Part shown: positions 1,088 to 43,154 of the stretch, piece by piece | Position numbering within the stretch: position 1 is the stretch's first letter | How the letters are laid out: the number at the start of each line of letters is the position of its first letter | From: an uncultured Opitutia bacterium | GTDB taxonomy: Bacteria; Verrucomicrobiota; Verrucomicrobiia; Opitutales; CAJWYM01 | Reading direction: 5' to 3' | Assembly (NCBI GenBank): GCA_913049555.1 | Contig: CAJWYM010000018.1 | Span: forward strand, 1-47,309 | Length of the DNA: 47,309 nt | Made by a program: the position numbers and the translations under genes | Notes under the pieces: generated by a model | Told to the model about the DNA's origin: nothing | Databases searched by the model: none | What the model saw: the letters and a program-made list of their open reading frames with translations, nothing else

Positions 1088-1181
1088 TAAATCCTTCCGA
1101 ATCTAAAACAACCTTCTAACTTTTCAATTCCCATCTAGCTAAGTTGAAATTTAGAGCTCTTTCATCCAGATCATTTATCAG

Positions 1182-8152: not shown

Positions 8153-8160
8153 ATATACGC

Positions 8161-11418: not shown

Positions 11419-11436
11419 CTCATAATTTATCTCATC

Positions 11437-19141: not shown

Positions 19142-20575
19142 TCAATATGCAGTCTTAGGTGGAAAGATTACTTGAAGGCCAGTTCTAACGATAATTTCTA
19201 AATCCATCCATAAAGACCAATTACCAACATAATAAAAGTCCATTTCAATGCGCTGGTTTAAAGAGGTTTCATCTATGACTTCCCCTCGAAGTCCTCTGCA
19301 CTGAGCAGGACCAGTAACTCCAGGTTTGACATATTGTCGAACCCGATATGCTTTGAAATCATCACTAAATAGACGATCATGACAAGGCATAAACGGTCTA
19401 GGCCCGACAATGCTCATATTGCCAATCAAAACATTCAAAAATTGTGGAAATTCGTCGATGCTAAATTTTCTGATAAATCGCCCCAACGGGAAAATACGAT
19501 CGTCATCCGATTTGGCTTGATCTTCAACTCGGTCATCCACATCGGGGACATACCTCATAGATCGATATTTGAAAATTGTAAAATTCTTTCCTGCTCGACC
19601 GACTCTCTCTTGCAAAAAGAAAATGGGACCTGGGGATTGAGCTCGTTGGAACAACCAGATAAATAGGGTCATAACAGGCAATAAAAAAACGACTACTGGC
19701 AAACTGATTAAAAGATCGACAAGCCTTTTCATCACTTGATTGAATGGATTCTCTAGAGGTTCATTTTGAAATGTAAAAAACGAATGCCCTGACTCCTCCA
19801 CAGGAATGATGGGAAGGTCCAAATACTCAGAAAATGGATTGTGTATCAAAACCCGACAACCTTTCTTATAAGAGGACTCAATGACTTGAGGCAACCAAGA
19901 AGCCATTCTACTATCAGTGACTACAACGATCCGACTTACCTTTTCTTTGTCAATAATTTCTGATAAATCATAAACACTCCCCAAGGTGCTCAATCGATGT
20001 TTCATATCCAAATCTCCGTCAGAAACATCGTTGGCGGTGACTAATCCCTTAAAAAGAAATCCCTTTCTTTGATAGTGAAATATCCAACTTTCAAGGCGAT
20101 TGATAGAGATTGGATCACCGACAAGAACCGTAGATTTAAATCTTTCAGATCCTTGAAAAAACTCTCTTAGCAAAACAGGGATCAGAAAATTACTAATCAA
20201 CAAAGTGGGCCAATAAGAAGCAAGCAATACACCCACAAATTGTCGGCTGGTTGACTTGTCTTTAGTAGCATAAACAGTAGCAAAAACTAAAAAAGCAATT
20301 ATTATCGTTTGAACATTGGCATAGAATACGCAACGACGAAAAGACTGCCAATGCCTTGAACTGAAGAATATATCATACTCCTGTTGTGAACCCAATGAAC
20401 TCAATAAAATTGCAGCTATAGAGCAAATTAAATACATCCATGGTTGCGAAGATGCTTCTAATTTAAAATCGAGATATTTGTCCCAAAATAAAAGCACAAA
20501 CCAAAACCATCCAAAAATAATGAATGCAAGTAATATTTTGTGAATGCCAATAACGCCATTGATTCTATGATTCAT
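19142..20575 (-). CDS. polyprenyl-phosphate sugar phosphotransferase (WbaP/WcaJ type)
   Basis: This is a membrane enzyme of 477 aa that transfers a sugar-1-phosphate to undecaprenyl phosphate, the first step of many exopolysaccharide and O-antigen pathways. Four hydrophobic helices lie in the first 150 residues or so. A nucleotide-binding-like middle domain (STVLVGDP onward) follows, and then the catalytic C-terminal domain. That domain shows a hydrophobic re-entrant helix after FNQVMKRLVDLLISLPVVVF, then SPGPIFFLQERVGRAGKNF, IFKYRSM, IDEFPQFLNVLIGNMSIVGP and VKPGVTGPAQCRG, which together define the family. It starts 27 bp after the giant coiled-coil gene in the same direction, so it is probably the third gene of that operon. 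No other glycosyltransferase, flippase or polymerase gene is in the window. The sugar is not predictable. Confidence 0.9.
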   Translation of the reverse strand: MNHRINGVIGIHKILLAFIIFGWFWFVLLFWDKYLDFKLEASSQPWMYLICSIAAILLSSLGSQQEYDIFFSSRHWQSFRRCVFYANVQTIIIAFLVFATVYATKDKSTSRQFVGVLLASYWPTLLISNFLIPVLLREFFQGSERFKSTVLVGDPISINRLESWIFHYQRKGFLFKGLVTANDVSDGDLDMKHRLSTLGSVYDLSEIIDKEKVSRIVVVTDSRMASWLPQVIESSYKKGCRVLIHNPFSEYLDLPIIPVEESGHSFFTFQNEPLENPFNQVMKRLVDLLISLPVVVFLLPVMTLFIWLFQRAQSPGPIFFLQERVGRAGKNFTIFKYRSMRYVPDVDDRVEDQAKSDDDRIFPLGRFIRKFSIDEFPQFLNVLIGNMSIVGPRPFMPCHDRLFSDDFKAYRVRQYVKPGVTGPAQCRGLRGEVIDETSLNQRIEMDFYYVGNWSLWMDLEIIVRTGLQVIFPPKTAY

Positions 20576-20602: not shown

Positions 20603-23600
20603 CTAATTTCTCGGTTTAAACATTTGTAGAAACAAATTTAAGGCAGCAGAATTAAAATTCAAGTCGTTGATCACTTTGCTTAATTCTCGATCCAATGCCT
20701 TTAATAATACAGCTATTTCGCCTTGACCGCCCGTCAATGAGTTTTCTTGAATAGCAAGATCAATACGCACTTTATCCAACTCCAAAATCCTTTTTTGAGA
20801 TTTATCCAAACTTAATTTTAAAGACTTTGTCATCTCTCGAGTATCATTCATAAATTTAGAAATTTCTTCTCTACCGAGCTCAGATTTTTTCAACTGACCC
20901 TTAAGCGTTTCCGTATCTACAATATACTTTGCTTCAACAGATTTCAAAGCACTCTTTGCTTTTTCAAGATCTTTAAGCGCTTTGGAGAGTTCATTTCTAT
21001 ATTTATCTAATTTTTCATCCTCTGCTTGGACAGTCCTACCCGATTCGGCAATTCTTTGATCTAAATTCTTTCTGTTTCTTTCCAATTCGTTGACTCTTTG
21101 CTGAAGAGAGTCAATTTTGTTGAGACTTTCTGGACTCGGTTCCGATTGATTGAGTGACTGAACGGTTGAGGAAACTTGATCTTTAGCAGCTTTCAAATTT
21201 TTATCATTCTTTTCTTTTTCGCGAATAAGTAAAGCCCGCGCAACTTCAAGATCTTTAATTTTTCTTTCAGAATCAGAGAGTTGATCTTTCAAGCCCTGAA
21301 TTGCAACTTCATTGCGAGTATTCAAATCTATATATTGTTGATTGACTTTTCTCATCTCTAAAATATCCGATTGCAGTCTTTCTACTATACTTGCATTGAC
21401 ACCTTGTTCTCTAGTAACAAGCAATTCCTTATTTAGGGACTCAATCTTCTCTTTAAATTCAGAAATTGATTGGTCTTTAGAAGCAAGTTGTAGATTCATA
21501 GAGCCGTCTTTTGAAACCAATTGCTGTTCTAAACTTTTTAACTGGTCTTTTAAAATCCCTAATGATTTTTCTTTTTGAGCCGTCTCCATTTGAAGTTTCA
21601 AATAATCTTTATTAACACGATTCAGGACAAGATCCATTTGGTTCAATTCCTCTGTACTGGGACGAGCTCCAAGAATTGATTTGAAGTCTTTGTCTTTATT
21701 CGCCAATTCAAGTCTCAATATTTCAACTTGCTTAGTCAAGTTTTCAGAGACAGCAGATTTTTCAACGGATAAGGTCGCAATTTGTTCGTTGGTTAATTTT
21801 AACTTTTCGGTCAACTCAAGAATGCTCTTTTGATCCATGTCTTTAGCATTGCTTAAAGCCAGAAGCGCATTTTCGGTTTCTTGAATTTTTTTCTGTAAAT
21901 CCATTATGAGGTTAGGATCTTTTTGATTTTTTAATGCAAGATTTAAAGCAGAAGCCTTTTTATTGATTTCACTCTCAAGTTTTTTAATCACAATTTCTTG
22001 AGATTGAATTCCCTTATTTAACTTAAGAATCTCATTCTCTGAGGAATCTAGTTCAGTCATTAGTTCATTCAATTCAAACTGTTCTTTGATCAACATTTTT
22101 TCAAGTCTCAGATTTGTAGCCTCCATAGCTCCGATCTTTCTTTGCAAATCCGCTAGAGAATCAGGATCTTTTTGATTTTTGAGAGCCAGAGTCAATTCTT
22201 CAGACCTTTCCCTTAATTGAGCCTGAAGTTTTTCAATAATTTTACCATCCAATTTTTTGCTTTCAGTATTGGAACCTTTTAATTGAACGAGTTCTTTTTC
22301 CAATAAAATTAATTGGGTTTTCATCTCACCAGAGGAAGCCTTAGATTTACTCTCAGAAAGCATTAATTGGTTATTAACCCCCGTAAAATTATTTTGAGCT
22401 TCCATCAAACGCTTTTCTAAATCTTTTATTCGATCAATACTTAAAGATTCTCTCTTGTTTTGACTCGCTAAAATTTGTTCGAATTGAGCTTTGGATGTTT
22501 CCAATTGGTCTCGAAGACTGGAAACAAGACCAGAAGATTCTTGACTGAATCGATCTTCTGATTTCTGAGCTACTTTTAAATCCACAATAACGTCTGAAAG
22601 ACGTTGTTCGAGTTTCCGAATTTGTCCATCCTTGGATTTGACCAACTCACTGTTTTCAATCGTTAATTTTGCTCTTTGGGTTTCAGAACTTTGAAGATCT
22701 TTTTGTAACTTTGATATGATTTGACCAGATCCAGTCTTAGCATTGTGTAAAGCTTGTCGGGTCACATTGAGATAATTCTCTAACTGCGCTATTTTCTTTG
22801 CATTCGCTTTCAAATCCTTGTCCATAGAGAAACTCTCTTGGCTAGACTTAGAACGGAGCATTTCTAGCTCTGATATCTCTTGCTTGTAATCTAGTATCTT
22901 CAGTCTTAAATTCTCTTGAATTTTAGAAGATTCTTTCGTATTCATCTCCACTTGTGCCAATGATTCAGTCAACTCATTCGTAAGTTTAGAAATAAGTTTT
23001 GAAGATTCACCTAAGTTTTCTTCCATAATTTTTTGAATATTGGAAACATCTTTTCTTATATTCTTAATTTCCTGATCTTTTGTGGCGATGATCGTTTTGC
23101 TTTGCTCTTGTAGGTCCTTCAATTGAATTTCAAGTTGATCGACCACTGAACTATAAGACTTCTTTTGCTGGGAAAGTAATTGATTTGCTGAATTTAACTC
23201 ATTTACCCCATTGTTAATTTCCTTTTCTAACTCTTGAATTCTCTTTTCACTCTTATTATTTTCAGTCCCCAAGAGCTCCTCGGCAGAAACTAAACGCTGA
23301 ACGTTGACTTTTAATTTTTCCTCTAAACTGGTAATATACGACTTAAGTTCTCGTTCAACAGTTGATTTTACATTCAATGCTTCTTGAAGAGATTTTTCCA
23401 ATTTCTTCACTTGATCCGCCATATTAATTTGGTAATCAAGATAAGCTTGCTCACTTTTTATAAATTGGTTTTTTAGATTTTTGAGTTCGTTAGACTTTAA
23501 AGAGGCAGATTTGTCAGTTTCTAATTTCAACTTTGATAAAGAAATAGAAGATTTCTTCAATTCATCTTTAAGCAATTGCAATTCCTTTGAATGCTTAGAA

Positions 23601-26600
23601 TTTGACAGTAAGATTGATTCATCCAAGATTTCATTCTTCTTTTCAGAGGCTTGCAACTCTTGAGTCAAAGAATCCACTAAAGAGTTGGCATCTTTTAATT
23701 TGAGGTCGAAACGTTTTTGTAATTGATCCAGTTGGTTACGAACGACTAACAAATCCGCAACTTTTTTTTCTGAAGCAATGAGAGCAAATTTGAGACTTTC
23801 CATCTCTTTTTCAAGCTGAGCTGTAATTTTTTGACGCAAACTCAACTCTTTAGAAGAATTGTTAAACTTTCGAGACTGATCCCTCAATTCTGTCTTTAAA
23901 TTATTCATTTGGATTTCAGAATTTTCTGATTTCATTGCAAAATCCATTTTGGCAACTTCAAGATTTTCTTTAGCAACAAGCAAAGATTCCTCTAGTTTTT
24001 TTAATTGGGAGCGTTTCGTTTTCTCTAATTCATTTGTGAGTATCAATTGTTCTTTTAAGCGACTCTCCCTTTCCAGAATTTCATCGTTCAATTTTGCAAT
24101 CAATTCATTCGAAATTTTTTGGTCTTCAACCTTTTGTTTTTCAACTGAAATCAGCTGATTTCGAAAAAGATCCATTTCAGCAGCATGGGCTTTACGATCT
24201 TTTAAAGCTAAGGATTGAGTCGATTTAAATTGTTGAGAAATTCGATCTGTCTTTAATTTATATTCGGAAACAATCTTCTCACGATTTTTCTTCTCATTCT
24301 CTAAAGACTGACTCAAAGATTGAATTTGAAGATTCATTTCTTTTTCAATTAAAGATTTCTTATCTCTCAGATCATTTAGAAGACTGTTTGAAGTAGACAA
24401 TTTATTTTCAAAAATCTCTATAGAAACTAATTTTTCCGTTTGAGCTTTTGAAACATCTGATTTTAGTTCTTCTATTTGGCTCTGATAAGATGCCATTTTA
24501 ATATTCAACTCTTTTATAAATTGATCTGCTTTTGTTTGATTTTTAACAATTATAGATTGTTTGTCATTGACTGCACTTTTTAGATTACGGATGTTTTCAT
24601 TCGCCAAATCCATTTGTTTCTTTGTTGTTTTGTGAACTTCATTCAACACCGATTTACTTAAGTTTAACGATTTTTTATATTGTTCCTCAGATTCAACTTG
24701 TTTTTTGCTAATGGACACAATTCTGTCTTCAAGTTCCTTGACTTGCTTAGAACGAAGGGCTTTTGAATCAGCAAGTTCTTTTTCAGATTTAAAGATTTGG
24801 CTATTTAAAAGGGCAATCGTTTTTTTAGATTTATCCAAACTCCTCACATGAAGGTTCAAATCGTTTTTCAGATCTGTTTCGATTATTTTGTAAAACTTTT
24901 GTTTTTCTTCAAAAGATTGTTCAAGTAATTGGATTGTTTTTGACTGTTTGGAAATTGTATCACTGCTCTTTGAAATCAATTCAATTTTATCATCTAATTC
25001 TTTTTCTAACTTATCTACCTGAAAAGAATAATCGATTTCCATTTCATCTCTCTTTTTAAGAGCTAATTGGAGTACACTTTTGTTTTTATCAAAATCCGAA
25101 CGAAGTTGACCTAATTTGTTATCAGCAATCAATTGTTGATCCATCATGGACTGTTCTTGTTGACTTAATTTCGACTGAAGCCCAGTAAGCTGATCCTTTA
25201 ATTCCTTAATAACTCTAGAATTAAGCTCAAAAATCTCACTTTTCTCTTTCTCTGTATTCTGCTGCAGAGAGATATTTTTCAACTTCGCTTCTTGTAACTT
25301 ATCATTGAGATTTGAGATTGTTTTTTTGGACTCATCAATTGAATTCAACTGAAATTCTAAATCTTCTTCCAACTTCAACTCTAGGTTTTGATAAAGTTTT
25401 TGATTTTTAGAAAGCATAATTTCCAAATTTTGAATTGTGTTTTTATGCTCTTCAATTTCATTTTCACTTTTTAAGATTAACTTCTTTTTTTGAGCAATTT
25501 GTGAATCCATTTCATCCACTTTAAGAGTGAACATTGAATTAAGATCCACATTTTTATCATTTGCAGAATCTAGTTTGCTAAGCGTAGATTTCAATTCATT
25601 CTTAAGCTTCGCCAATTCATTTCCTAACAACTCTCTCTCCTCAGATCGAACCTTGACCTGTTCTTTAAATTGCTCTTTAGTTTGCAATAGTTGATTATTC
25701 AATTCATCAATCACCTTTGTGTTGACTTCATTACTAACCTTTTTGTTTTTATTGAGCTGAACAATTTCTAATTTTAAAGACTCAATCTTTTTGTTAAACC
25801 GACTCAAATCGTCTTTTTTTTGTTTTTCAACTGAAGACAGCAATTTTCTTTGATTGTTTATATCTTCTTTTAGTTGATTTTGATAGATTATGGAATCTTG
25901 GGTTGCTTTTTCTAATTGTTGCTTAAGGGCTAAAATACCACTTTTATGGTTGGTGATTAAAACTTCTTTGGTAGATTCACTTGATTTTAAAGATTCCTCT
26001 AAAGATAAAATCTGTTTGTTTAATGAAATTTCGGTCACATCTTTTAGAGATTTGACGGTCTTAATATTTTTTTCTAAAACAACTATTTTTTCTATGAGAT
26101 CTTTAGCCTTTTGATCATTCGTTGAATCCTCCTCTACTTTCTCTTTCTTTAGTTTTTGGATTTCATTTTGATATTTAGAAATATCTCCTAACAGAGAATC
26201 AATAATATTTTGGTTTTGTTTTTCTGTTTGTATCTTCTCAGATTGAGCTTTCTCTAAAGTAACTTTCAGTTTGGAAGACTGAGTTTTTGCAACTTTAAGT
26301 TCCCTTTCTTTAAGATTCGTGATTTTAGAAAGTTCACTTTCCATTTTCTTAAGGACCAAACTGGAATTCTTTTGAGTAAGAACACTTTCTTCTTTTAGGA
26401 GTTTAATATTATTATTTAAATTGGAAATTTCAGCATCTTTTTCTGTGGAAATTTTTTGAATTTTTACCTGTTCGCTCTCAAGGGATTTATAAAGCGACTT
26501 TATTTTTCTTTCAAAATCCTCGTTGGATTGAATTTGTAAAGATTGGCTACTCGCCAATGCTTTCTCTAAAGAAAGAATGGTCAGGCGTTTAGTCTCAATC

Positions 26601-29600
26601 TCTTTGTTTGCAATAATTTGTTTTTTTGACCATGAAGTTCGGGCTTCTTGAAAATCTTCCTCAACTTTTTTAAGAGACGTTTTTAAATAAGTATTTTTAC
26701 TCATTATCTTAGATGAATTTTCTATGGCTTGTACCAATTCAAGCTCCAGTTTTTGAATACTTCCATTCAACTCTTTTTCTTTCAACTCATTCTTTGAAAC
26801 TGAGGATTTAAGGGCTTTTTTTGTTTCATTTAAAGACCTTTCTAATTCAGAAATTAAAAGGTTGGAAGCATCCTCACTCTCTTGACGATTTTTGCGGACG
26901 AGAACAATCCGATCTTTCAAAGCATCCATCGACTTATTTTTATCTAATATCTCATTTTTAAACTCCAACTTTAAACGTTTGTGCTCTTCCTCGAGCGAGA
27001 CCAAAGCATTATCAACTGAACTTTTTTCTTTAAGAGACAACTCTAGGGTCTTGGAAAAATCCCTTTTTAGATCCGCAATTTCTTTTTCTTTTGAAATTAC
27101 AATAAAAGACTTTTCTTTTAGTTTCTCAGACAATTCAGTCTTGAGTTGATTCATTTTAGTCTTCAATAAATCGATCGTTTTGTCTTGTTTTCTTTTTGTA
27201 GTCAACAGTTCATTCTCAGAATTTTCCAAATTTTGCTGAGAAAGATTTAAAGTTTTCTCAAGTTGACTCACCTTGGACTGTAAATTATCCGAAACCACCT
27301 GATAACTTTCTAATTGAGAGTTTAAATACTGGGTCGTTTTCTCAAGTTCATCTTCGAATAATATTTCTTGCTCATTTAATAATATAGATTGTTCCTTCTT
27401 GAAATTTTTGAGCTCCTTAATTTGTTGGGTTAAAGAGGTAAAAGAAACCTCTTTGTCTTTCAGGATTTTGTCTCTTTCTAGTTTTAGGGAGCCCATTTCA
27501 CTTTCCAATTGGAGCGCTCGATTCAATGAGTTGTCAATCAGTCGATCTTTTTCCCTCAACTCAATTCTCATATTTTTTTGTAAAGCTTGAATGGTTGCCT
27601 CTCTAGAAGCAATTTTACGATCTAGCTCCAGTTTTGATTTGGATGCATCCAACTTGGTAGACTTGATTTCATCTCTAAGTCCAGCGATTGTATCCGAGGC
27701 CTTCAGAGAAATCACATTCATCCTCTCCTCATTTTTAAGCAACTTATTCTGAGTTCTAGATAATTCAGATTCGAACTTTTTTAGTTGAAGCGTGAGCTGC
27801 AATTTCAAATCTTGGTTTTCGCGAATCGAATTCTCTAAATCGGATCGCGTTTGGGAAAGATCTTTCTCCAAAGAAGCCAACATTTTGTTGGAATCTATTG
27901 CCAAAAGATCTCTTTCAGAAACTGCCTTTTTCAAAGATGCTTCTAGGGCTTTTAAAGCTTCTTGTTTCGCAAGATTTTCTTTCTTTCTTTTATTTTCTAA
28001 ATCATCAACCTGTTTTGAAAGTAAGAGGACGTCTTGAGTAGACTTTTTCTTTAAAGATTCAAGCTCTTGGGTTTTCAAGGTAAACGCTTTCTCAAGCTTA
28101 GCGACAAGTTGATTGTTCATCACTAATTCTTGAATTCTGGTTTTCTCCAATTTTGCCTTCTCTTCCAATACTTGGTTCAATTCAGACTTTACTTGTTTGA
28201 TTTCAATCAAATTTTCTTCTCGGGCTTCCTTGTTATTTTTATTGGCAATTGTTAACTCTTGAGACAGAGCTTGTATTTGATTCAAAAATCCATCTTCTTT
28301 GATTTCAGCCTGCTTAGAAAATTCTTTAAAACCAGAGCGACTTAGACTTAGTTCATTTTCCAGCGAACGAATTGAATTCAATGCAGAATCAAGAGCCAGA
28401 GCATGTTCTTTCTTTTCTTTACTTAAAACTTTTTCCAATTCTTCAAGGTTCTTTGATGTCGATTGCTTGTATTGGTTCGTATCCTCTGACAAATATTTAA
28501 ATTCAAACTCTAAGTCCTCTATGATTTTTGACTTTATCCCTAGTTGTTTCATGTAAAGGGATGACTTAACAACTAACTTTTTCTGTAGGGATTCAATTTT
28601 GGCTTCTCGCACCAGAATTTCTTTTGATAAGACAGCCTGAGAGGTGGTAGCCTCACTTTTTAACTGATTCATTCTCTCAGAAAGTTCGAGTATCTTATCA
28701 TTGGCCAATTTTTTTTCTTTCTGACTCAATTCCCTCTGCTCATTGAGGCTCACAGCTGAGGCTTTAATTTCCATCTCCAGTTGATCAATTTTCACGCCCA
28801 AAGAACTTTCTTTAGATTTTGCTGTGTTGATCAAAGCATTCATTTCAGACTTAGCCAAAGATAGGTTTTCAGCCAATTTTTGAATACGATCCGCACTGGA
28901 TTTTTCAATTTTTTTATTTAGATTTACAGCAGCGACTAAATCTTTTTCAAGGACAGAAACTTGGTTGGATAATAAACGAATCGATTTTGTTTTTTCGTCC
29001 AACAATGATTTCTGTTCAGAGATTTCAGTTCTTAACTGAGAAATCACCTCATTGTCTTTGTTCTTTTGCAGTTTCAAACCTTTTAAATTGTTGGTTAAGA
29101 GTTCAATTTTTTCAAAATTTTCTTTCAAAACTGAAGATTGCCCAGAAATCTTTTTAGAGTTTGAAGCACGCTCTGTCTCAAGACTTTTATTCTTATTTTT
29201 TAAAGATTGGATGGATTCCGTTAAATCCTGTTGATTCTGAAGTTCTTGAGAAAGAGCATTGAGTTTACTCCGTAAACTGCTGATTTCTAGGGTTGAATTT
29301 TTACTTAAAATTGAAATTGCTTTTTTACTTTTTGTCAGAAGAGCCCCCAATCGATTTACGCGCGACGATTCCGATTTGACTTTTTCTAATAATTCGAAGT
29401 TTTCAGATTTAAAAGTCTGTTCCATCTCAGTCAACTGATTCTCCAAACGATTGATTTGGAGGTCTTTTGTATTTAGTTGAGATTCTAGGCTAACAATAAA
29501 TTGGTTGGCTTTAGATTCAGTTTGACGTGCCTCCTCCTTTAAATCGTCAAGAAGATTGGACTGAGAACTGAGTTCTAAGTCTTTTGCTTGTGTGAGGGCT

Positions 29601-32600
29601 ATAAAATCCTGACGACTCTTCTCAATTTGGGTGAGCAAGTTCGTTCTAATTTTCTCCTCATTCAATAATTCCGATTTTGTATCTGTGATAGAAAGCTCTA
29701 ATTCATCAATTCTTAGTTGTTTTTCTCGGCTGTTTTCTTCAAGAGTAGACAAAGTCGTTTCTAAAAATTGAATGCGTTCACGAGATGCAGAAGCACTTTT
29801 TTCAGTCATCTTTAGATGATCTTCAAATTCTAAAGTTTTTACTTTCAATTGATTGCTGAGTAAATTCTTAGTCTCTAGCAATTTTGATTTTGCTTTTTCT
29901 TTTGTAAAAGCCAGTTCCTTTATCAACCGTGCCGACTCCTGATCAAAAAGTTGTTTTTGAGTCTTCAATTTCTTGGTGAGGTCAGAATTATTATTTGAAG
30001 AAATAGCAAATTCCTTCTCAAGATTCTGAATTTTCTTTTCTAATAAAAATTTTTCTTCGATATTTTTGTTTAAATTTGTCTCTAGATCTAAAGTTATGTT
30101 CTTTAAAGCCTCTATTTCTGGATTTAATTTTGACAGTTGAGCATTGAGGCCATTAAGGATTTTTTGTTTTTCTTGTGAACTTTTCTTTGCATTTGAAATA
30201 GACTCTTGTAAATCGCGAACCCGATCTTCTGAATTTTTAAGATTTGTCTCTAATTCAGAACTTTTAAGGGATGATGTACGTTTTTCTGATCTAAGATTTT
30301 CGTTCAATCTCAATAAATCTTTAGAAAGCTTTTCAATCAAAACTTTTTGCTCCATTTTTTCATCACTGATAAGCGACAATTTTTGGGCTAAAAGATTCTT
30401 TCCTTTGTCTAAATTCTCAAAATTGCTTCGCTCATTTTTAAGTTTAGATGTGAATATCTTTTCCAATTCCATTAAACTTTGATCTGCATTTCTCTTAACA
30501 AAATCTATCTCCGTTTCAAGATCTGATATCTGAGCAATCAATGAGGTGTTTTGTTTCTTTAAGTTATTTTGTCGCTCAGAATTTTCGATCTTATTGTTCT
30601 TTAAAAGATCTTTAAAATTTAAAATTTGATTATCCACCGATTCTTTTTCTTTATTTAGTCCCACTAATTGAATATTCAATCGTTTGATTACTAAACTTGA
30701 TTCATTAAGCTTAGTAGAAAGTGAAGAAAGCTGGTTTTGGAGATTTGAAAGAATAAGCTCTTTTTTCGAGGAGTCCTTTTGGCTCTGATTTAAAAGAATT
30801 TCAAAATCTTCAATCTCTTTTATAAGTTTTGAGATCTCAACATCTTTCAGTTTCAACATTTTTGAATTTTCGGTTTTATCCAGTTTGATTTTTGAAAGAA
30901 ACTGTTTTTCCAACTGTTCAATTGATAGGGCGGATTTTTCCTTGCTTTCCAAAACCCTAGACTCCAAATCATTCATGATCTCTTCAAACTCAACCTCACG
31001 GGATAGATACACCTTATTGATCTTACTTTTTTCGGCCTCTATCAATTCAATCTTGGACAATAATTTTTGCTTGTCATTGTTATAGAGTTTTATTTGCTTT
31101 TCACTGAAATTTTTGTTTTCAGCAAGATCGACCACTAATTGTTCCCTAGCAACTTGAACTTCATGGATCTTTTTTAACCAGTTTTTTTCCTGAATTGCAT
31201 AAGAATCCAATTCTTTTTTTCTAAGTTCAGATAAGTTAGAAATTTCATTCTCCAAATTCTTTTGCTTTAAATCTTGCTTTGTTCTTTCGTCAAGGTGCAA
31301 TTTTTCTTGGTCGTTTAGTTGCTTCTGTAATTCAGAGATTCTTGATTTAGATAAAGTCCATTTTTCTTCTAACTCTTTGGAAAACTTGGTAGTATCTATT
31401 TTCAAATCAGAGAATGACTTTTTCAAATCGTTAATAGAGGTTTTGGAATCGGATAATTTTAAGCTTAATTGATCAATGACATTCTCATAAGTTACTTTTT
31501 CAGTTTCTCTCAGATTCTCTAATTTTTTGACACCTGCTTTCAATGATTCAATTTGACGATTGGCTGATTGAATATCTTTCGATGATTCTTCAACTACTTT
31601 TTTAAGAGCAGCAATCTCAATTTTAGAACGTTCTTTTACACTTTTAATAACAGTCTCTTTGTCTTCCAGCTTTATTTGAAGAGATTCTATTTCATCTCTT
31701 TTAGATATTAATAATGCAGATTTCTCAGAATTTAACTTTTTGAATTTGGCAATTTTTTCACTACTTTCTTGATTGTTGCGAACTTTTATAAGCTCCATTT
31801 GTTGTGTCAAATCTCTATTAGCAGATTTTGCTTTCTTCAGAGAAAGCTCGTTTTCTCTTAACTTCAATACCCACTTAGATTCTTGATCTTTCATTGAATC
31901 TTCAGATTTTTGGAGTAATTTTTTAAGCCCATTTACTGAGGATAAGCTAGAATCTAGTGACATCTGCAAAGCAGACAACTCGTCTTTTGATTTACTAGTA
32001 ATCCTTTCTACATCTGACACTAGAGATTTTTTTAGAGCCTGAATCTGATTCATAGAATCTTGATTTTTTAAAACCAGATCTCTATTTTCGTTCCCTAAAT
32101 TTTGAATTTGTAATTGAAAAGATTGCTCCGATTCAGCTAATTTAATTTTTAGCCTCTCGTATTTGATAACCTCATTTTTTAGCAAATTATCAATTTTTTT
32201 GAATTTTTTTTGCTCTTCGTTGAAGGATTTATCTAACATAGTAAGTTTGAGATTCTTATTCTCCAACATTTCCTTGTGAGATCTTTTAATATTTTTTAAT
32301 TCAAAATAAATTGAATCAATCTCTTTCTGTTTCATTGTTATTGATTTGGCAGAAATCTGATCTTTTTTACTAGCAGAATCTTTTAAGTTTTTGAACTCAA
32401 TCTCTAAGGTGTCTTTTCGCTTTTTTAAAAGACTTAATTGATCTTCCAAACCCAAAATATTAGACCGAAAAAATTCTCGTTTTAATTCTGCTTCCTCAAC
32501 TAATTTCTCAATTTTTAACTGAGATTCAGATAAGGATTTCTGAGTTTTATTTAATTCAGCTAAGGCCATTTTTTTCTCCTTAGTCAACCTGGCAATGAAA

Positions 32601-35600
32601 TCGTTTTGCTCTTTTTTAAGGGATTCAACAGTTTGTGTTGTTTCCTTTTTCTGAATTTCTAGTCTAGAAAGAGCACGAGAAAGTTCTTGATTGATAGATT
32701 CAATTAAGGCTTCTGATTTTTGATTCGATTCAATCGAAGAATCGCTGAGCTGTAAAATCTCCAATTTTAATTCTTCAACATTTTGAGAACGATTTTTCAA
32801 TTCTTCCTCTAACTTTTTTTGAACCGAAACAAAATTCATTTTCTGCGAGGAGATCTCTTTTTTAAATGCAGATAAATTAATTTCTAAAGTGGATTTTATT
32901 TTAACATTTTCTAATAATTCAAACTCTGCTTTTTCTAATCTTTTAACTATTTTATTGTAGTCCATCTGGTGATCGGACTGTTCTTTTTCCAATTCTTTCA
33001 AAATCGTTTGTATAGACTTCTTTTCACTAGAAAATTCAGCTGATTTTTTCTCCAAACTTGAAATGGCGTCTTCCATTTGTTTACGAGCCAACTCTTTTTC
33101 GTTGGTGATGGTGATTACTTTATTTTCAAGTAAATCAATTTGTTTTAAATGTTTGCTTTGGTCTTTTACTAATTGCGCTTTCGCTTTTTCTAAAAACTCA
33201 ACTTGAAGGTTCAAATCCTTCTTCTGTTCCTCGTATTTAGAAGCTTGTTTTCGGTAGTCAACTAAATCCTTGTTTTTTAGTTGTTCAAAACGAACATTTT
33301 TGGATCTAAGTTGTTCCAATTGACTTTCATATTTTGCAATGATTGCCTGAGAATCAATTTCGAGTAAATCTCTATTTTTTTTATGATCTTTTAGTTCACT
33401 ATAGAGATCATTCAAAAGCTTTTGATTCTCCACTACGTTTTTTTCAAGCTCTTGTTTTGAAATTTTTAAATTACTGACTAACTCTTGTTCCTTCAATAAT
33501 TGCTTTTGGACGGTTACAATTCCTTTGTCTCTTTTCTTTAGAGATTTGTTATACTCAATTGCAGATTCGGAGGAGCTTTTTAACTGATTTTCAAGTTTAT
33601 TTTCAACACTCTTTAAAGAAAGGAGGGTATCCTTTTGAATTTTTTTCTGTTTTTGAAGAGATTCATTCAGAGAAATAATTACTGACTCCTTTTCGTCCAG
33701 TGCTTTTACGAAGTCGTTTTGTAATCTTGAGATTTCAACTTCAAGATTCTTCTTCTGAGAAGACATTCGCTCGAATTGATTCGAAAATTCATTAATTTCG
33801 GAAGCTAATTTTCCCTTTAGTTTCTCATTCTCGTTAAGGACATTCTTAATTCTAGATTTGTAGACCCCAATACTTTTTGAAATCTGGACCAACTCTTGAT
33901 TTCTACCTTCCAACTCTGATTGAGCATTTGATTTGAATTGATTTGCTTGTGATGCAGCCATCCCCAAATCTCTCAAAAGTTGTTCTTTTTCTTGAGTAAG
34001 GGAAAGTATTTTAGCCTCTGCCTCTTTTTGAAGCCTTTCCTTTTGTTCAAATTTTGATTGATATGCCTTTTTCGTAGAGCTTAACTCATTGACAAGTTGC
34101 TCTTTCAGCATGGAGCTTTGTTTCTTAATCTCATTCGCAGTTTTTAATTTTTCCTCAAAAGAAAAAATCAATTCCTGGTCACGTTTTTTTTGCTCTTCCA
34201 AATCTTGAATTCTGGAGGCTAATTCTTTTTTAATTTTTTCAAATTTTTGTAATTCTTTAATTACAAGATCTTCAGAGGCATCCAAGTCTTTGGAGGTCCT
34301 TACTCTAGATTCTACTTGTTTTGTAATCTCGGAATCTAACTTCTTTATTTTTAGCTCTAATCTTAAAATCTGTTCCTGTTTTTTGTTGTCTTGAGACTGA
34401 AAATCGGATTTCAAGGACTGTCGTAATTGAATCTCTTCATTCAATTGATCGTAAGACAAAACTAACTTATTTTCCAATTGAGAAAAACGCTCTTTCAACT
34501 GTTTATTTTCCAATAAAGATCTTTGATAGAGGTTCTGTTGGGAAACAAGTTCATTTTTTAATTTAAAAATCGCTGCTTTTTTGTCTTCACTGAGAGATCG
34601 TTGATTGGATTTAAATTTTTCATAACTATCCAAAGAATTCTTTAACTCTTTCTGTAAATTCTGATATTGATCCTTAAATAATTTTTCTTTGTTGCGGCTT
34701 TCTAAGATCTGTTTATTAACTTGCTTTTCCATACTCTGGATAAACATTGCAGCTTCCATCTGTTGTTTCTGCAAAAGAGTATTTTTTTCTTGAAAGGATT
34801 GGTTCTTCGAATCCATTTGGTTTGTCAAATCTTGCAAAGCAGCGATTTTTGCCTCAGAGGCTTTTAACAATGCTTTCTCATTAGTGAGGGCACTCTTTAA
34901 TGAATTTTCTCGGTTGTTTAAATCTTCAGTGAGTGAAGCCACTTTTCTACTTAACAAACTTATTTCTTTGGACTTTTTGGTAATTGAAAGTTTTTCATTT
35001 TTGGCATTTGTTTGAATCGATTGATGCAAAGTTGAAACCGCTTCTGAAAAAGAATTTAAGTTTTTAGTATTTAGTTCCTTGCTTTCCTTTAATTTGAAAG
35101 TTTCAAATAAAACCTTTTTTCCTTCTTTTAGTTTTGAAATATTCCTAAAAACCAAATTGCGTTCGGATTCGAGGGTTTGGTTGTTGGGATCGATCAGACT
35201 GTAATATTTTTTGGCTTCCGCTAAATCTGACTTGAGGAGGTAAGCCTTGGTGATTTGCAAATGAATATTATCTAGTATATTTTTGGGAATATTTCTATTT
35301 TTAAGCTGATTTAAGATACGAAGTGCTCTATCTGCCCCGTAGGTTTCTGATTCAAGATATACAATGGCCAATTTTAGAGCATACACATAATTGATTGAAT
35401 CATATTTCAATGCTTGTCGGTAAGCAGTGAGTTTTTGGCGCTCTACTCCACTGTCAGTCAAAATGCCGCGACTGATTATCTGATTAGAGTTTTGATCTAA
35501 AGTCTCAGCCAGAGTGAAATAAAAGTCCGCATTGGATGGTTCTAATTCAATCGCCTTAAAATAGTATCCCAAAGATTGATTGAAGTTGCTTTCTGAAGCA

Positions 35601-35965
35601 GCAATTTCTCCCATTAGGCGGAGAGTTAAACCAATATTGGGATCCATATTAAAGGATTTCCTAATTAGATTATTTCCGTCCTCTGTGAGGCGTATTTTAC
35701 GAAGCAATAAACCGTGAAAAAGATACCCAAGTGGATCCTTTGGATTTTTAGCAGAATAGCTTTTATATTTTTCCAGAAGCAAAGAGAGCTCTTCTTTAGT
35801 TTCCGCTAACGAAAGTTGAAGCCCTGCTTTGTTCAAATCTCTTAGAACAGAGCGTTGTTCCTCTACCAGAGACTGAATCTCTTTGGTCAATTGAGGCTTA
35901 CCCAATGAAAGGCATGGAAAAAGAATTAATAAAAGGATCGAATAGAGCCTCGATTTGCATTTCAT
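20603..35965 (-). CDS. giant exported TPR/coiled-coil protein (5120 aa)
   Basis: This uninterrupted gene of 15.4 kb encodes 5120 aa. It has a signal peptide (YSILLLILFPCLSLG, cleavage near residue 22), a helical TPR region at about residues 70-265 (SLGYYFKAIELEPSNADFYF is the clearest repeat) and then about 4,780 residues of near-continuous heptad-type coiled coil dominated by K, E, S, L, Q, N and D. Tryptophan and proline are rare in the coil, and I found no cysteine after the signal region. There is no Walker motif, so it is not an SMC-type ATPase. The end, LSKVINDLNFNSAALNLFLQ, resembles the tail of the upstream 1297-aa paralogue. The start is ATG 35965; TTG 35983 would only add six residues. 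It lies 29 bp after the paralogue. An envelope or surface scaffold, tether or fibre is inferred. Confidence 0.85.
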   Translation of the reverse strand: MKCKSRLYSILLLILFPCLSLGKPQLTKEIQSLVEEQRSVLRDLNKAGLQLSLAETKEELSLLLEKYKSYSAKNPKDPLGYLFHGLLLRKIRLTEDGNNLIRKSFNMDPNIGLTLRLMGEIAASESNFNQSLGYYFKAIELEPSNADFYFTLAETLDQNSNQIISRGILTDSGVERQKLTAYRQALKYDSINYVYALKLAIVYLESETYGADRALRILNQLKNRNIPKNILDNIHLQITKAYLLKSDLAEAKKYYSLIDPNNQTLESERNLVFRNISKLKEGKKVLFETFKLKESKELNTKNLNSFSEAVSTLHQSIQTNAKNEKLSITKKSKEISLLSRKVASLTEDLNNRENSLKSALTNEKALLKASEAKIAALQDLTNQMDSKNQSFQEKNTLLQKQQMEAAMFIQSMEKQVNKQILESRNKEKLFKDQYQNLQKELKNSLDSYEKFKSNQRSLSEDKKAAIFKLKNELVSQQNLYQRSLLENKQLKERFSQLENKLVLSYDQLNEEIQLRQSLKSDFQSQDNKKQEQILRLELKIKKLDSEITKQVESRVRTSKDLDASEDLVIKELQKFEKIKKELASRIQDLEEQKKRDQELIFSFEEKLKTANEIKKQSSMLKEQLVNELSSTKKAYQSKFEQKERLQKEAEAKILSLTQEKEQLLRDLGMAASQANQFKSNAQSELEGRNQELVQISKSIGVYKSRIKNVLNENEKLKGKLASEINEFSNQFERMSSQKKNLEVEISRLQNDFVKALDEKESVIISLNESLQKQKKIQKDTLLSLKSVENKLENQLKSSSESAIEYNKSLKKRDKGIVTVQKQLLKEQELVSNLKISKQELEKNVVENQKLLNDLYSELKDHKKNRDLLEIDSQAIIAKYESQLEQLRSKNVRFEQLKNKDLVDYRKQASKYEEQKKDLNLQVEFLEKAKAQLVKDQSKHLKQIDLLENKVITITNEKELARKQMEDAISSLEKKSAEFSSEKKSIQTILKELEKEQSDHQMDYNKIVKRLEKAEFELLENVKIKSTLEINLSAFKKEISSQKMNFVSVQKKLEEELKNRSQNVEELKLEILQLSDSSIESNQKSEALIESINQELSRALSRLEIQKKETTQTVESLKKEQNDFIARLTKEKKMALAELNKTQKSLSESQLKIEKLVEEAELKREFFRSNILGLEDQLSLLKKRKDTLEIEFKNLKDSASKKDQISAKSITMKQKEIDSIYFELKNIKRSHKEMLENKNLKLTMLDKSFNEEQKKFKKIDNLLKNEVIKYERLKIKLAESEQSFQLQIQNLGNENRDLVLKNQDSMNQIQALKKSLVSDVERITSKSKDELSALQMSLDSSLSSVNGLKKLLQKSEDSMKDQESKWVLKLRENELSLKKAKSANRDLTQQMELIKVRNNQESSEKIAKFKKLNSEKSALLISKRDEIESLQIKLEDKETVIKSVKERSKIEIAALKKVVEESSKDIQSANRQIESLKAGVKKLENLRETEKVTYENVIDQLSLKLSDSKTSINDLKKSFSDLKIDTTKFSKELEEKWTLSKSRISELQKQLNDQEKLHLDERTKQDLKQKNLENEISNLSELRKKELDSYAIQEKNWLKKIHEVQVAREQLVVDLAENKNFSEKQIKLYNNDKQKLLSKIELIEAEKSKINKVYLSREVEFEEIMNDLESRVLESKEKSALSIEQLEKQFLSKIKLDKTENSKMLKLKDVEISKLIKEIEDFEILLNQSQKDSSKKELILSNLQNQLSSLSTKLNESSLVIKRLNIQLVGLNKEKESVDNQILNFKDLLKNNKIENSERQNNLKKQNTSLIAQISDLETEIDFVKRNADQSLMELEKIFTSKLKNERSNFENLDKGKNLLAQKLSLISDEKMEQKVLIEKLSKDLLRLNENLRSEKRTSSLKSSELETNLKNSEDRVRDLQESISNAKKSSQEKQKILNGLNAQLSKLNPEIEALKNITLDLETNLNKNIEEKFLLEKKIQNLEKEFAISSNNNSDLTKKLKTQKQLFDQESARLIKELAFTKEKAKSKLLETKNLLSNQLKVKTLEFEDHLKMTEKSASASRERIQFLETTLSTLEENSREKQLRIDELELSITDTKSELLNEEKIRTNLLTQIEKSRQDFIALTQAKDLELSSQSNLLDDLKEEARQTESKANQFIVSLESQLNTKDLQINRLENQLTEMEQTFKSENFELLEKVKSESSRVNRLGALLTKSKKAISILSKNSTLEISSLRSKLNALSQELQNQQDLTESIQSLKNKNKSLETERASNSKKISGQSSVLKENFEKIELLTNNLKGLKLQKNKDNEVISQLRTEISEQKSLLDEKTKSIRLLSNQVSVLEKDLVAAVNLNKKIEKSSADRIQKLAENLSLAKSEMNALINTAKSKESSLGVKIDQLEMEIKASAVSLNEQRELSQKEKKLANDKILELSERMNQLKSEATTSQAVLSKEILVREAKIESLQKKLVVKSSLYMKQLGIKSKIIEDLEFEFKYLSEDTNQYKQSTSKNLEELEKVLSKEKKEHALALDSALNSIRSLENELSLSRSGFKEFSKQAEIKEDGFLNQIQALSQELTIANKNNKEAREENLIEIKQVKSELNQVLEEKAKLEKTRIQELVMNNQLVAKLEKAFTLKTQELESLKKKSTQDVLLLSKQVDDLENKRKKENLAKQEALKALEASLKKAVSERDLLAIDSNKMLASLEKDLSQTRSDLENSIRENQDLKLQLTLQLKKFESELSRTQNKLLKNEERMNVISLKASDTIAGLRDEIKSTKLDASKSKLELDRKIASREATIQALQKNMRIELREKDRLIDNSLNRALQLESEMGSLKLERDKILKDKEVSFTSLTQQIKELKNFKKEQSILLNEQEILFEDELEKTTQYLNSQLESYQVVSDNLQSKVSQLEKTLNLSQQNLENSENELLTTKRKQDKTIDLLKTKMNQLKTELSEKLKEKSFIVISKEKEIADLKRDFSKTLELSLKEKSSVDNALVSLEEEHKRLKLEFKNEILDKNKSMDALKDRIVLVRKNRQESEDASNLLISELERSLNETKKALKSSVSKNELKEKELNGSIQKLELELVQAIENSSKIMSKNTYLKTSLKKVEEDFQEARTSWSKKQIIANKEIETKRLTILSLEKALASSQSLQIQSNEDFERKIKSLYKSLESEQVKIQKISTEKDAEISNLNNNIKLLKEESVLTQKNSSLVLKKMESELSKITNLKERELKVAKTQSSKLKVTLEKAQSEKIQTEKQNQNIIDSLLGDISKYQNEIQKLKKEKVEEDSTNDQKAKDLIEKIVVLEKNIKTVKSLKDVTEISLNKQILSLEESLKSSESTKEVLITNHKSGILALKQQLEKATQDSIIYQNQLKEDINNQRKLLSSVEKQKKDDLSRFNKKIESLKLEIVQLNKNKKVSNEVNTKVIDELNNQLLQTKEQFKEQVKVRSEERELLGNELAKLKNELKSTLSKLDSANDKNVDLNSMFTLKVDEMDSQIAQKKKLILKSENEIEEHKNTIQNLEIMLSKNQKLYQNLELKLEEDLEFQLNSIDESKKTISNLNDKLQEAKLKNISLQQNTEKEKSEIFELNSRVIKELKDQLTGLQSKLSQQEQSMMDQQLIADNKLGQLRSDFDKNKSVLQLALKKRDEMEIDYSFQVDKLEKELDDKIELISKSSDTISKQSKTIQLLEQSFEEKQKFYKIIETDLKNDLNLHVRSLDKSKKTIALLNSQIFKSEKELADSKALRSKQVKELEDRIVSISKKQVESEEQYKKSLNLSKSVLNEVHKTTKKQMDLANENIRNLKSAVNDKQSIIVKNQTKADQFIKELNIKMASYQSQIEELKSDVSKAQTEKLVSIEIFENKLSTSNSLLNDLRDKKSLIEKEMNLQIQSLSQSLENEKKNREKIVSEYKLKTDRISQQFKSTQSLALKDRKAHAAEMDLFRNQLISVEKQKVEDQKISNELIAKLNDEILERESRLKEQLILTNELEKTKRSQLKKLEESLLVAKENLEVAKMDFAMKSENSEIQMNNLKTELRDQSRKFNNSSKELSLRQKITAQLEKEMESLKFALIASEKKVADLLVVRNQLDQLQKRFDLKLKDANSLVDSLTQELQASEKKNEILDESILLSNSKHSKELQLLKDELKKSSISLSKLKLETDKSASLKSNELKNLKNQFIKSEQAYLDYQINMADQVKKLEKSLQEALNVKSTVERELKSYITSLEEKLKVNVQRLVSAEELLGTENNKSEKRIQELEKEINNGVNELNSANQLLSQQKKSYSSVVDQLEIQLKDLQEQSKTIIATKDQEIKNIRKDVSNIQKIMEENLGESSKLISKLTNELTESLAQVEMNTKESSKIQENLRLKILDYKQEISELEMLRSKSSQESFSMDKDLKANAKKIAQLENYLNVTRQALHNAKTGSGQIISKLQKDLQSSETQRAKLTIENSELVKSKDGQIRKLEQRLSDVIVDLKVAQKSEDRFSQESSGLVSSLRDQLETSKAQFEQILASQNKRESLSIDRIKDLEKRLMEAQNNFTGVNNQLMLSESKSKASSGEMKTQLILLEKELVQLKGSNTESKKLDGKIIEKLQAQLRERSEELTLALKNQKDPDSLADLQRKIGAMEATNLRLEKMLIKEQFELNELMTELDSSENEILKLNKGIQSQEIVIKKLESEINKKASALNLALKNQKDPNLIMDLQKKIQETENALLALSNAKDMDQKSILELTEKLKLTNEQIATLSVEKSAVSENLTKQVEILRLELANKDKDFKSILGARPSTEELNQMDLVLNRVNKDYLKLQMETAQKEKSLGILKDQLKSLEQQLVSKDGSMNLQLASKDQSISEFKEKIESLNKELLVTREQGVNASIVERLQSDILEMRKVNQQYIDLNTRNEVAIQGLKDQLSDSERKIKDLEVARALLIREKEKNDKNLKAAKDQVSSTVQSLNQSEPSPESLNKIDSLQQRVNELERNRKNLDQRIAESGRTVQAEDEKLDKYRNELSKALKDLEKAKSALKSVEAKYIVDTETLKGQLKKSELGREEISKFMNDTREMTKSLKLSLDKSQKRILELDKVRIDLAIQENSLTGGQGEIAVLLKALDRELSKVINDLNFNSAALNLFLQMFKPRN
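21914..22189 (-). repeat. short duplicated block in the giant coiled coil (LALKNQKDP)
   Basis: The nonapeptide LALKNQKDP is encoded twice, at 22163-22189 and 21914-21940, exactly 249 bp (83 aa) apart. Similar sequence continues after each copy (DLQRKIGAMEA and DLQKKIQETEN). The proline makes each a likely kink in the coil. This is direct evidence of a local internal duplication. Confidence 0.7.
24779..25438 (-). repeat. two diverged internal repeats, 167-aa period, in the giant coiled coil
   Basis: Two stretches of 53 residues align without gaps at an offset of exactly 501 bp (167 aa): 25438-25280 (TIQNLE...ESKKTISNLN) and 24937-24779 (TIQLLE...KSKKTIALLN). I count 21 of 53 identical residues, including aligned Y, TI, SKKTI and LN positions that heptad composition alone would not fix. 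This suggests the coil grew by internal duplication followed by divergence. Confidence 0.65.
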
Positions 35966-35994
35966 ATTAATTATAAGGGTCAAAATTGGATTGT

Positions 35995-38900
35995 TTATAA
36001 TGTGCTATCCTCTTGTAAGAAATCATAAAACAGATCAATAGCAGTTTTACTAAATTCTAAATCGGATTGTAAAAATTGAATTTCAGACAATAAATCGTCC
36101 ACTTTGGAAACATCGAGATTGGTTGATTTCAAAAGTTCCATATCTTTATTGATTCGATCCATTCTTGAAAATGGGCGCTCAATACTTTCATTCAAAGATT
36201 GTATCATCTCCAAAGTCTCAGCAATAAGCCTTTTCTTAGAATCATTAATTTTAGTGTCAGAACGAGAGGTTTTGGACCATTTTGATTGTAGACTTTTGTA
36301 ATCGGATCCAATGGAAATAAGATCCTTTTCAACTATTTCCAATCGTGCAGAAAGACTTTTATTTAAACGCTTGGACTCGGCAAAATCTTTCTCAATGATT
36401 TGACTTTTCTGAAGTCTTTTTCTCAAAGCAGTCAATTCAGATTCTTGGACTTTCAATTCATTTTGAGAATTGGTGTAACGATCTGTTAAATTTTTGAATT
36501 GGACTGACTGATCTTGATATCCATCCTTCAAACTTGCATAGCGATCCTCAAATTTTGCCGAATTTACCTTCACAAGCTCCAAGGACTCTTGAGCCTTTTT
36601 CAAATTCTTTTTTAAAATAACAATTTCTGAATCTCTAGCCTCAATTGCAAGACGAGCATTGGACAATTGCCCACCCTCTCCGCCAATGGAAACAAGATCT
36701 TTTTCCACTCTTCCCAAGCGATCCGACAAGCTCTTATTCAAGCTCTTAGAATCGGCAAGTTCCTTAACTATAATAAGCCCACTTTGGAGTTCTTCGTTTA
36801 GGGCTGTAATTTCCAACTCTTGATTTTTCAGTTTATCTATAGCAGAAGTGTATCGAATTGACAATGCCCTATACTGCTCGATTTGTTCTTTTGACCCTTC
36901 CTGTAATTTTGTATTGCGATTTTTAAATTGCTGCCAATCGGCCTCTACAAGCACTAAGGATTCTTGAGAATCTTCCAATTTCTTTTTAAGCAAAATAATT
37001 TCTGAATCCCTCTTTTTTAATTGTAGGAGCACACTGCTTGATGAATCATTCTTTTCACTGAGGGAAATCAGGTCCTTTTCAACCCTTTTCAAACGAACTG
37101 ACAAACTTTTATTCAAAGTCTTTGACTCGGCAAGTTCCTTTGCATTGATTTGGTTTCTTTGGAGCTTCTCGTTGAGGGCTGACAATTCCAAATCTTGGTT
37201 TTTCAATTTATCTTTAGCGGATGTGTATCGATCCGCCAAAGCTTTGTATTGCTCTGCTTGTTCTTTTGACCCTTCTTGTAATTTGGTATTGCGATCTCTA
37301 AATTGTTGCCAGTCAGCCTCAACAAGCTCCAAAGACTTCTGAGAATCTATCAATCTCTTTTTAAGTAGGATTAATTCTGAATCCCGCTCTTCTGTTTCCA
37401 GTGGCTCAATCTTTGCTAAGTCTTTTTTTTCACTCAAAGAAATAAGATCTTTTTCAACCCTTTGCAAGCGATCCGACAATCTTTTATTCAAAGTCTTAGA
37501 CTCGACAAGTTTCTTAGCATTGATTTGATTTTTTTGGAGCTTCTCATTCAGCACTGACAATTCCAAATCTTGGTTTTTCAAATCATTTTGTAGGGATGTG
37601 TATCGTTCTGATAGGTCTTTAAATTGAGAGGCCTGAATCTGGAATCCTTTTTTGAGTTTAGAATTGCGATCTCTAAATTTTTCCCAATCTGCCTGAACAA
37701 GCTCCAATGATTTTTGGGAATCTTTCAATTTCTTTTTAAGTATAGTAATATCAGATTCTTTTTGATCCATTTCTGAGCGTGCTGTTGACAATTGAATTTC
37801 GAAATCTTTAACCAATTGAAGATTGAGATTTTTAGAGGAATCCAGTTGAGATTGAATCTTATCAAAACTTTTTCTCATATTTTGATCAGAGCTTTGAGTT
37901 TCAATCACCTCTTTGAATTGGTTAATATCGGATAATTTTTTCTCAACTAAAGACAACTTAGATGCCAACTGATCACGCTGTTTCACTAAACTTGCTTTTA
38001 GAACATACTCACTTTTAAGCTTTTTTTGTAATTCTGCTAAATTTTGTTCGGCAACTTTTAAAATACTTTTCAACTGATTATTTGATTTTTTTTCATCTAA
38101 TAATTTTTTTTCAAATGAAATAAGCTCTGAATTTTTGTTATTCATGGTGAGCTCAAATTCTTTCATCTTGTTTTTAAATTCAGCAATCAACGCTTTCTTT
38201 TCTTCACGCAATTGATTCAAATCTTTCGTAAAAGAACTTTTTTTTGTAAGTCCATCTTTCAAAGCATTTTCAAGTTGTTTGTTTAGGATGTTGACTTGAT
38301 TTTCTAATCCTTTGTTGATTGTTAAAACTTCATTCAGGTTTGATTTTAGACTGTCTTTATCATTTTTGATGCTGATCAAAGATTCATTCTTGGCTTTCAA
38401 TTCATCCAAAAGCCTCATCTTTTCCTTAATTAATTTTTTGGAGGGATCCTCCTTTGTTTCTAAAAAATTGGATTTGTCTGTAAGAATTTCAACTTCCTCT
38501 AATTTAATTTTTAATTCTTTTATCTGACTATTAGCTTTTTTTAAGGCATTGTTCGTTGTTTGGTATCTTTGAACCACATCTTCAAAATGCAGTTTCTGTT
38601 TTTGAAATTCTTCCAAAGCCAATTTGTTGTTTTTCTTTAAATTCGTTAAATCCGACTGGACATCAATGAATTCACGATCCTTGTCTAAGAGTTTCTTTTT
38701 GAGAAGTCCGATTTCTTTAGCTTTTTCATTTCTAGCAAGAAACATCTTTTCTAACTCATTTTCCAGTTCTTTGTTCAGGGATGAGCTTTTAGAAATTGAA
38801 TCATTTGTGGAAGGCGAAACAGCAGGTATAATTTCAGGAACTGGAACTGGTTTGGAAAAAAGAGTGGGAGCATTGCTTGCTATATCATCCATCAACTCCT

Positions 38901-39888: not shown

Positions 39889-39963
39889 GTTAGGTCGATA
39901 AAATGATATCAGCAATCTTTAATAATCTAGGTATGCGGGTATTGAGGTCCATATGAGTCCATT

Positions 39964-42751: not shown

Positions 42752-42761
42752 TTGTATCCAT

Positions 42762-43154
42762 TTGAGAACGCGACAACGTAGAAGAAAAGCTCACATAAAT
42801 CTTATACCATTGGTGGATGTTCTAATGGTTTTGCTTTTTTTTCTGCTCGTATCTATGCAATTTAAAGACAAAAATACGCTCAATATATCATTACCTAAGA
42901 TTGACACTGCCGGTTCCAACGACCTTCAAAAAGAAATTCAAATTGCGATCAACAAAGAGGGCGATTTTTACATCAACAATCAGAAGGTAACCTTTAAAGA
43001 GCTAAAAACTGCATTGAAATTGGCTGCATCTATCAATCAGGAACAATCGATTCTTCTCCTTGCAGATGAGGAGGCACTTTTTAAAAAAGTTACACTACTC
43101 ATAGATACTTGTAGAAAGCTAAATCTGAAAAAATTTAGACTGCAGTCGAAGTAG
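42762..43154 (+). CDS. exbD: ExbD/TolR-family proton channel protein
   Basis: This is the partner of ExbB, 130 aa: a short basic cytoplasmic start (MRTRQRRRKAH), one transmembrane helix at about residues 14-33 (LIPLVDVLMVLLFFLLVSM) and a periplasmic domain. The conserved proton-path aspartate is D19 in LIPLVDV. The gene appears to start with TTG at 42762: the first in-frame ATG encodes M22, inside the helix and after D19, and the upstream gene ends only 10 bp before. It is the last gene of the leuCD-exbBD run. The 80-bp gap to the convergent priA gene has no obvious terminator hairpin. Confidence 0.86.
   Translation: MRTRQRRRKAHINLIPLVDVLMVLLFFLLVSMQFKDKNTLNISLPKIDTAGSNDLQKEIQIAINKEGDFYINNQKVTFKELKTALKLAASINQEQSILLLADEEALFKKVTLLIDTCRKLNLKKFRLQSK

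Follow-up and report, generated by a model that had tools for sequence, protein, structure and literature searches.

The known skeletal filaments of bacteria are, for the most part, assembled from subunits of modest size, and the majority of them, including Scy and FilP of Streptomyces, are cytoplasmic. The coils of Scy and FilP are long, mix heptads with hendecads, and have a hendecad core rich in Ala (PMC9858780). CrvA of Vibrio sets a precedent for the control of cell shape by a periplasmic protein (PMC7695739). PVC bacteria have a disproportionate number of huge proteins (PMC11573180), and Giant1–5 of Apilactobacillus kunkeei are exported surface proteins of 3,000–8,000 aa encoded by adjacent genes (PMC12863079).

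The protein described here, hereafter the giant, is predicted to be exported and combines a TPR head with a coiled-coil rod of ∼4,750 residues. Like Scy and FilP, it is a long bacterial coil of heptads and hendecads. However, their rods are just over 1,000 residues and follow a DivIVA-related head, whereas the giant has a TPR head and a signal-like N-terminus, and Ala makes up only 0.03–0.07 of its core positions. Intermediate filament-like proteins such as crescentin, FilP, and Scy are cytoplasmic, whereas the signal-like N-terminus of the giant argues for export. CrvA is far smaller and is likened to the giant as a functional analogy only. Giant1–5 are similarly huge and exported (in the giant, export is predicted) but are extracellular and from a Gram-positive bacterium; the likeness is one of description. 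An earlier, sequence-only reading of this DNA knew of no named bacterial system with this design. We likewise found no described system with this architecture in the open-access literature (subscription papers were outside the search), but the giant is an extreme member of a kind found across the clade and not a design apart.

The giant is encoded on the minus strand (20603..35965) of the window, the 47,309-nucleotide stretch of contig CAJWYM010000018.1 that was analyzed, which belongs to the 3.10-Mb draft genome (102 contigs) of an uncultured Opitutia bacterium. One frame is open throughout positions 20603–35983 and encodes 5126 aa when counted from an in-frame TTG at 35983. The first ATG corresponds to Met7 at 35965, 29 bp past the stop codon of the upstream gene, and is the likely start, yielding a protein of 5120 aa and 590 kDa. 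GC3 varies between 0.27 and 0.35 along the gene, and codon use for Leu, Lys, Glu, and Ser is near that of neighboring genes. Such homogeneous codon use speaks against an assembly join of unrelated frames, which is ruled out when the presence of a second giant gene on another contig is also considered. The size and the single intact 15.4-kb gene of the sequence-only reading, which gave no strand, are thus correct, and the frameshift joining unrelated frames that it had singled out beforehand as a danger was not seen. We give next to no credence to the explanation that the giant is an artifact of assembly or annotation, or else remains cytoplasmic. The genome is a fragmented draft and the gene is known from sequence alone, but in addition to the codon use and the second giant, there are long relatives in independent assemblies, and N-termini are signal-like throughout. 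Rfam and tRNA scans of the window returned no matches.

The N-terminus of the giant, MKCKSRLYSILLLILFPCLSLG/KPQ (35900..35965, minus strand; the slash marks the putative cleavage position), was judged by eye to be signal peptide-like, of the SPase I type and lacking a lipobox. By the same inspection, all four paralogues in the source genome have signal-like N-termini, and relatives share a similar N-terminal layout. Residues 30–300 (TTG-numbered; 35084..35896, minus strand) form the TPR head, on which Pfam (TPR_17), alignments, an alignment-based AF2 model (mean pLDDT of 89), and Foldseek matches of that model to TPR superhelices all agree. Pfam matches to TPR are confined to the head, with nothing above cut-off in the rod. 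The only cysteines are at positions 9 and 24 (TTG-numbered). A motif search found no Walker A and Pfam yielded no ATPase match, ruling out an SMC/Rad50-like ATPase. The head, the predicted signal peptide, and the lack of an ATPase motif and of cysteines past the signal region are therefore all as had been claimed.

The head belongs to a family of exported-looking TPR proteins of ∼280–400 aa, usually one per genome; of 373 genomes from the order, a profile search recovered the family in 239. More diverged members occur in other orders of class Verrucomicrobiae. The head of the giant matches relatives with E-values from 1e-8 to 4e-22 and the family profile with an E-value of 5.5e-65, or 3.0e-31 when the giant was excluded from the profile, yet it is only about 14–27% identical to other family heads. 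The family members have the same TPR head and, by inspection, a signal-like N-terminus but end after the TPR, whereas the giant adds about 4,780 residues. The giant is not the single-copy, tail-less orthologue of ∼300 aa but an extended, extra paralogue. The profile search of the TPR head that had been proposed for finding orthologues recovered this class-wide family and paralogues; no orthologous giant was found in the searched set, which is without other members of its GTDB family. Matches to the coil in 273 genomes of the order were limited to its own genome, and a PriA probe of genome contigs for close relatives found none.

Searching the source genome with the TPR head uncovered three further genes. 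The design is not a one-off: two of these genes encode a second giant and a neighbor with TPR and coil. The sequence-only reading overlooked the second giant and the TPR-coil character of the neighbor, as well as the class-wide TPR family from which the head comes and, as described below, the 32-residue register and the conserved coils of 1,800–2,100 aa in a related family. The second giant (4462 aa; contig C10:18354-31742) has a signal-like N-terminus, TPR, a coil of ∼4,060 residues with the same 32-residue register, and an unnamed C-terminal domain (CTD) of about 170 residues. The neighbor is a 1306-aa gene with a TTG start (35995..39915, minus strand) that is upstream of the giant and encodes a signal-like N-terminus, TPR, and a coil of ∼915 residues. 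Inside it are four direct repeats with 375-bp spacing (36313..37737, minus strand), in frame, in tandem, and of 125 aa each, which capture the coil in the act of growing by duplication. The third gene, on contig C5 beside an M50 protease gene, encodes 567 aa. Because the family is usually represented by a single short protein, the C5 gene is likely its orthologue and the giants are likely extra, extended copies. In a tree of TPR heads, the branches of the giants are very long and their placement is consequently unsettled; the tree may be compatible with either a single gain or repeated gains of coils.

The rod of the giant spans residues 336–5090 (20714..34978, minus strand). COILS-type probabilities, computed with the MTK matrix, exceed 0.5 across 80% of the whole giant versus 31% in shuffled sequences, and globular proteins of the window used as controls score 0. 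Proline is nearly absent after residue 266, and the longest stretch without it is 2,651 residues. In an AF2 model of the last 1,000 residues, made from a single sequence and of low confidence (mean pLDDT of 59), ∼95% of residues are helical with short breaks. Short breaks are also predicted by the COILS-type scoring, for example around residues 2457–2497, 3099–3147, and 4551–4607. The prediction is therefore not one of short broken helices only, and the near-continuous coil of ∼4,780 residues claimed earlier holds for ∼4,750 residues, but with short interruptions. A short tail ending in FNSAALNLFLQMFKPRN (20603..20713, minus strand) bears a weak resemblance to the terminus of the 1306-aa protein. 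The C-terminal motif common to the two is weak (p = 0.017), no convincing relatives of either C-terminus were found (52 genomes were searched with the tail of the giant), and the C-terminus of the giant has no known Pfam domain.

The coils of the two giants have a quasi-regular 32-residue register. Self-comparison by BLAST gave nothing useful and a dot-plot was used instead. In both giants, autocorrelation of hydrophobicity peaks at a lag of 32, which exceeds lags of 7, 14, and 28, while a lag of 25 is second or close to it. A uniform 3.55-residue helix whose coherence decays would not place a lag of 32 above lags of 25 and 7. We trained a circular hidden Markov model, using six residue classes, on each giant and scored it on the other; a period of 32 was best in both directions (0.0550 versus 0.0501 for a period of 7, and 0.0617 versus 0.0466). 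Conversely, the same reduced-alphabet model favors a period of 7 over 32 in the coils of three shorter TPR-coil relatives (the 1306-aa protein, G017, and G036). When all 20 residue letters are used, the 32-state model is overfitted and has no gain over a period of 7 on held-out data; the evidence for the 32-residue register therefore rests on the reduced alphabet and autocorrelation. Core positions of the unit are 0, 3, 7, 10, 14, 18, 21, 25, and 28, which corresponds to 7+7+11+7, or three heptads and one hendecad, and there are about 148 units in the giant and 127 in the second giant. Profiles trained independently on the two giants are correlated (r = 0.93; r = 0.79 for core positions alone). 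The repeat is quasi-regular because a 25-residue spacing is mixed in, and breaks in register within the coils of the two giants have a median spacing of about 90–100 residues. Such a register has apparently not been described until now.

The composition of the core suggests how the chains associate. I+V/L is 0.82 at a-like versus 0.28 at d-like core positions of the giant and 0.66 versus 0.25 in the second giant; enrichment of Ile and Val at a positions is typical of parallel two-stranded coils, and we infer from sequence that this is probably the oligomeric state. A myosin-like 28-residue charge repeat was looked for in the giant and not found, so there is no signature of ordered side-by-side assembly. 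The predicted breaks in the coil and those in the AF2 model of the last 1,000 residues could also reflect a coil that folds back into short antiparallel bundles and forms a compact scaffold instead of a long rod. We consider this very unlikely, as the pattern of the core is like that of a parallel dimer and the phase coherence of hydrophobic residues in the coils of the giants persists for more than 100 residues.

Extended at 0.1485 nm per residue, the coil would be about 706 nm in the giant and 603 nm in the second giant. The rod of ∼0.7 µm inferred earlier is thus attainable if the coil is extended, but because short breaks exist, a single unbroken rod of this length is an upper bound. With that proviso, the geometric argument that the rod cannot stand across a periplasm holds. 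Two extended geometries are left, a cable tangential to the envelope or a fibre directed outward. We propose, with belief and doubt about evenly matched, that the giant is a structural cable located in the envelope and docked by its TPR head. The protein would be exported by Sec to become a structural component of the cell envelope, its cleavage and location being presumed. The TPR head, derived from the exported TPR protein of Verrucomicrobiae, would dock on a partner in the envelope, and the tail of ∼4,750 residues would pair in parallel with that of a second copy, forming a two-stranded cable of up to 0.7 µm. Since a cable of this length would not fit across the periplasm, it would most likely lie tangential to the envelope or in part beyond it, where it would bear load or maintain spacing. 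Its companions of the same design would be the second giant and the 1306-aa neighbor.

Long, exported-looking coils are also present in the related families f18 and f2, where their extended lengths are about 200–220 nm. Two TPR-coil proteins of f18, one of 1922 aa (JABJCN010000008.1) and one of at least 1620 aa that is 5'-truncated at a contig end (CAJWWL010000032.1), are 38% and 29% identical over two aligned stretches. In f18, the extension is in the TPR gene proper, which is the only strong match to the family in the genome rather than an extra copy. The 1922-aa protein resembles the giant in its signal-like N-terminus, TPR head, and long coil, but the coil is about a third as long and has ordinary heptads with a period near 3.5 and no 32-residue register. 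In both f18 species, a conserved gene of 515–533 aa lies on the opposite strand, with its end just past the 3' end of the TPR-coil gene.

The f2 proteins were found by searching with the CTD of the second giant, a domain with no convincing match in Pfam or PDB. They have a signal-like N-terminus and a long coil, conserved in f2, in common with the giant but lack a TPR head, and the giant of the window lacks their type of CTD. Most f2 genomes encode one coil-CTD protein, and such proteins were noted in about 40 of these genomes; 25 long open frames range from 1796 to 2107 aa (median of 1955), and the three that were read are 47–50% identical end to end, over about 1,900 aa. A slight signal at the 32-residue lag is present in the f2 coils too (0.097 versus 0.062 at a lag of 28). 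Many f2 genomes have one or two further exported-looking CTD proteins of ∼400 aa, one of which is lipoprotein-like. In the source genome, the search matched the second giant and two short proteins, both of which combine a signal-like N-terminus with a short coil, but not the giant of the window. Conservation of both its sequence and its length means that the f2 coil is under selection, which indirectly lends credibility to the giants as proteins with a function. Judging from sequence, long exported-looking coils are a trait of the clade, with the giant as an extreme of an unrecognized class.

Variation in length among lineages (about 300, 1306, 1922, 4462, and 5120 aa) would also be expected if function resides in the TPR head and the coil is a spacer under loose constraint, grown by repeated internal duplication, whose exact length is immaterial. 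The tandem repeats of the 1306-aa neighbor and the very diverged head of the giant are in line with such a spacer. Nevertheless, the f2 coil has been kept in sequence and length, and the giant retains an ordered 32-residue register and long proline-free runs. Its DNA also has no long repeats, which rules out a recent expansion at the DNA level. On balance, we find the loose spacer improbable. If the coils are instead cables, some Opitutales could have an envelope skeleton of exported single-polypeptide cables, 0.2–0.7 µm in length and docked by TPR heads or CTDs, with those of the giants built on the 32-residue register. We put this forward tentatively and with more doubt than the cable itself. 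We know of no bacterium with a skeletal principle in which one pair of molecules, not a polymer, spans a cell-scale distance. If true, uncultured PVC bacteria would have a naturally occurring molecular ruler or cable in their envelope, made of conserved exported coils that measure ∼200 nm in the clade and of single-polypeptide coils of 600–700 nm in one lineage. The TPR-coil, coil-CTD, and short CTD proteins are a defined gene set to test in relatives, and the register, apparently undescribed, is an object for structural study. Altogether, this looks like a real but unstudied structure of the cell envelope.

The 1306-aa gene, the giant, and a gene for an exopolysaccharide (EPS)-initiating glycosyltransferase form a tight run on the same strand. 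The last, a polyprenyl glycosylphosphotransferase (19142..20575, minus strand; TIGR03025, E-value of 3.9e-94 and above cut-off; Bac_transf), is 27 bp downstream of the giant. The second giant is 17 bp upstream of lpxA (TIGR01852, above cut-off). Both neighbors are genes for envelope polysaccharides and weakly suggest an envelope context. The adjoining EPS transferase, a length far greater than the periplasm, and the presence of the CTD of the second giant and f2 on the short exported-looking proteins, including the lipoprotein-like one, are also consistent with a surface fibre or tether that passes through the outer membrane and extends outward from an end fixed at the cell, holding exopolysaccharide, particles, or neighbors away from it. 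However, sequence inspection of the giant revealed no LPXTG, lipobox, or recognized signal for outer-membrane exit or anchoring, and its C-terminus has no known domain. We regard the fibre as unlikely, although less so than the loose spacer, and favor the envelope cable.

Elsewhere in the window, an ExbB/TolQ- and ExbD/TolR-like pair (42170–43154) directly follows leuCD and is divergent from the coil genes, with no TonB-like partner seen nearby. Two proteins without Pfam or NCBIfam matches are encoded at 14283–17564 (1093 aa, with a pilin-like hydrophobic N-terminus) and 13502–14263 (253 aa, with a signal-like N-terminus). Positions 179–13311 hold what by inspection is a sugar-utilization cluster, with an AraC-type regulator, a glycosidase, an ABC sugar transporter, two sulfatase-like proteins, and two paralogous 620-aa proteins.
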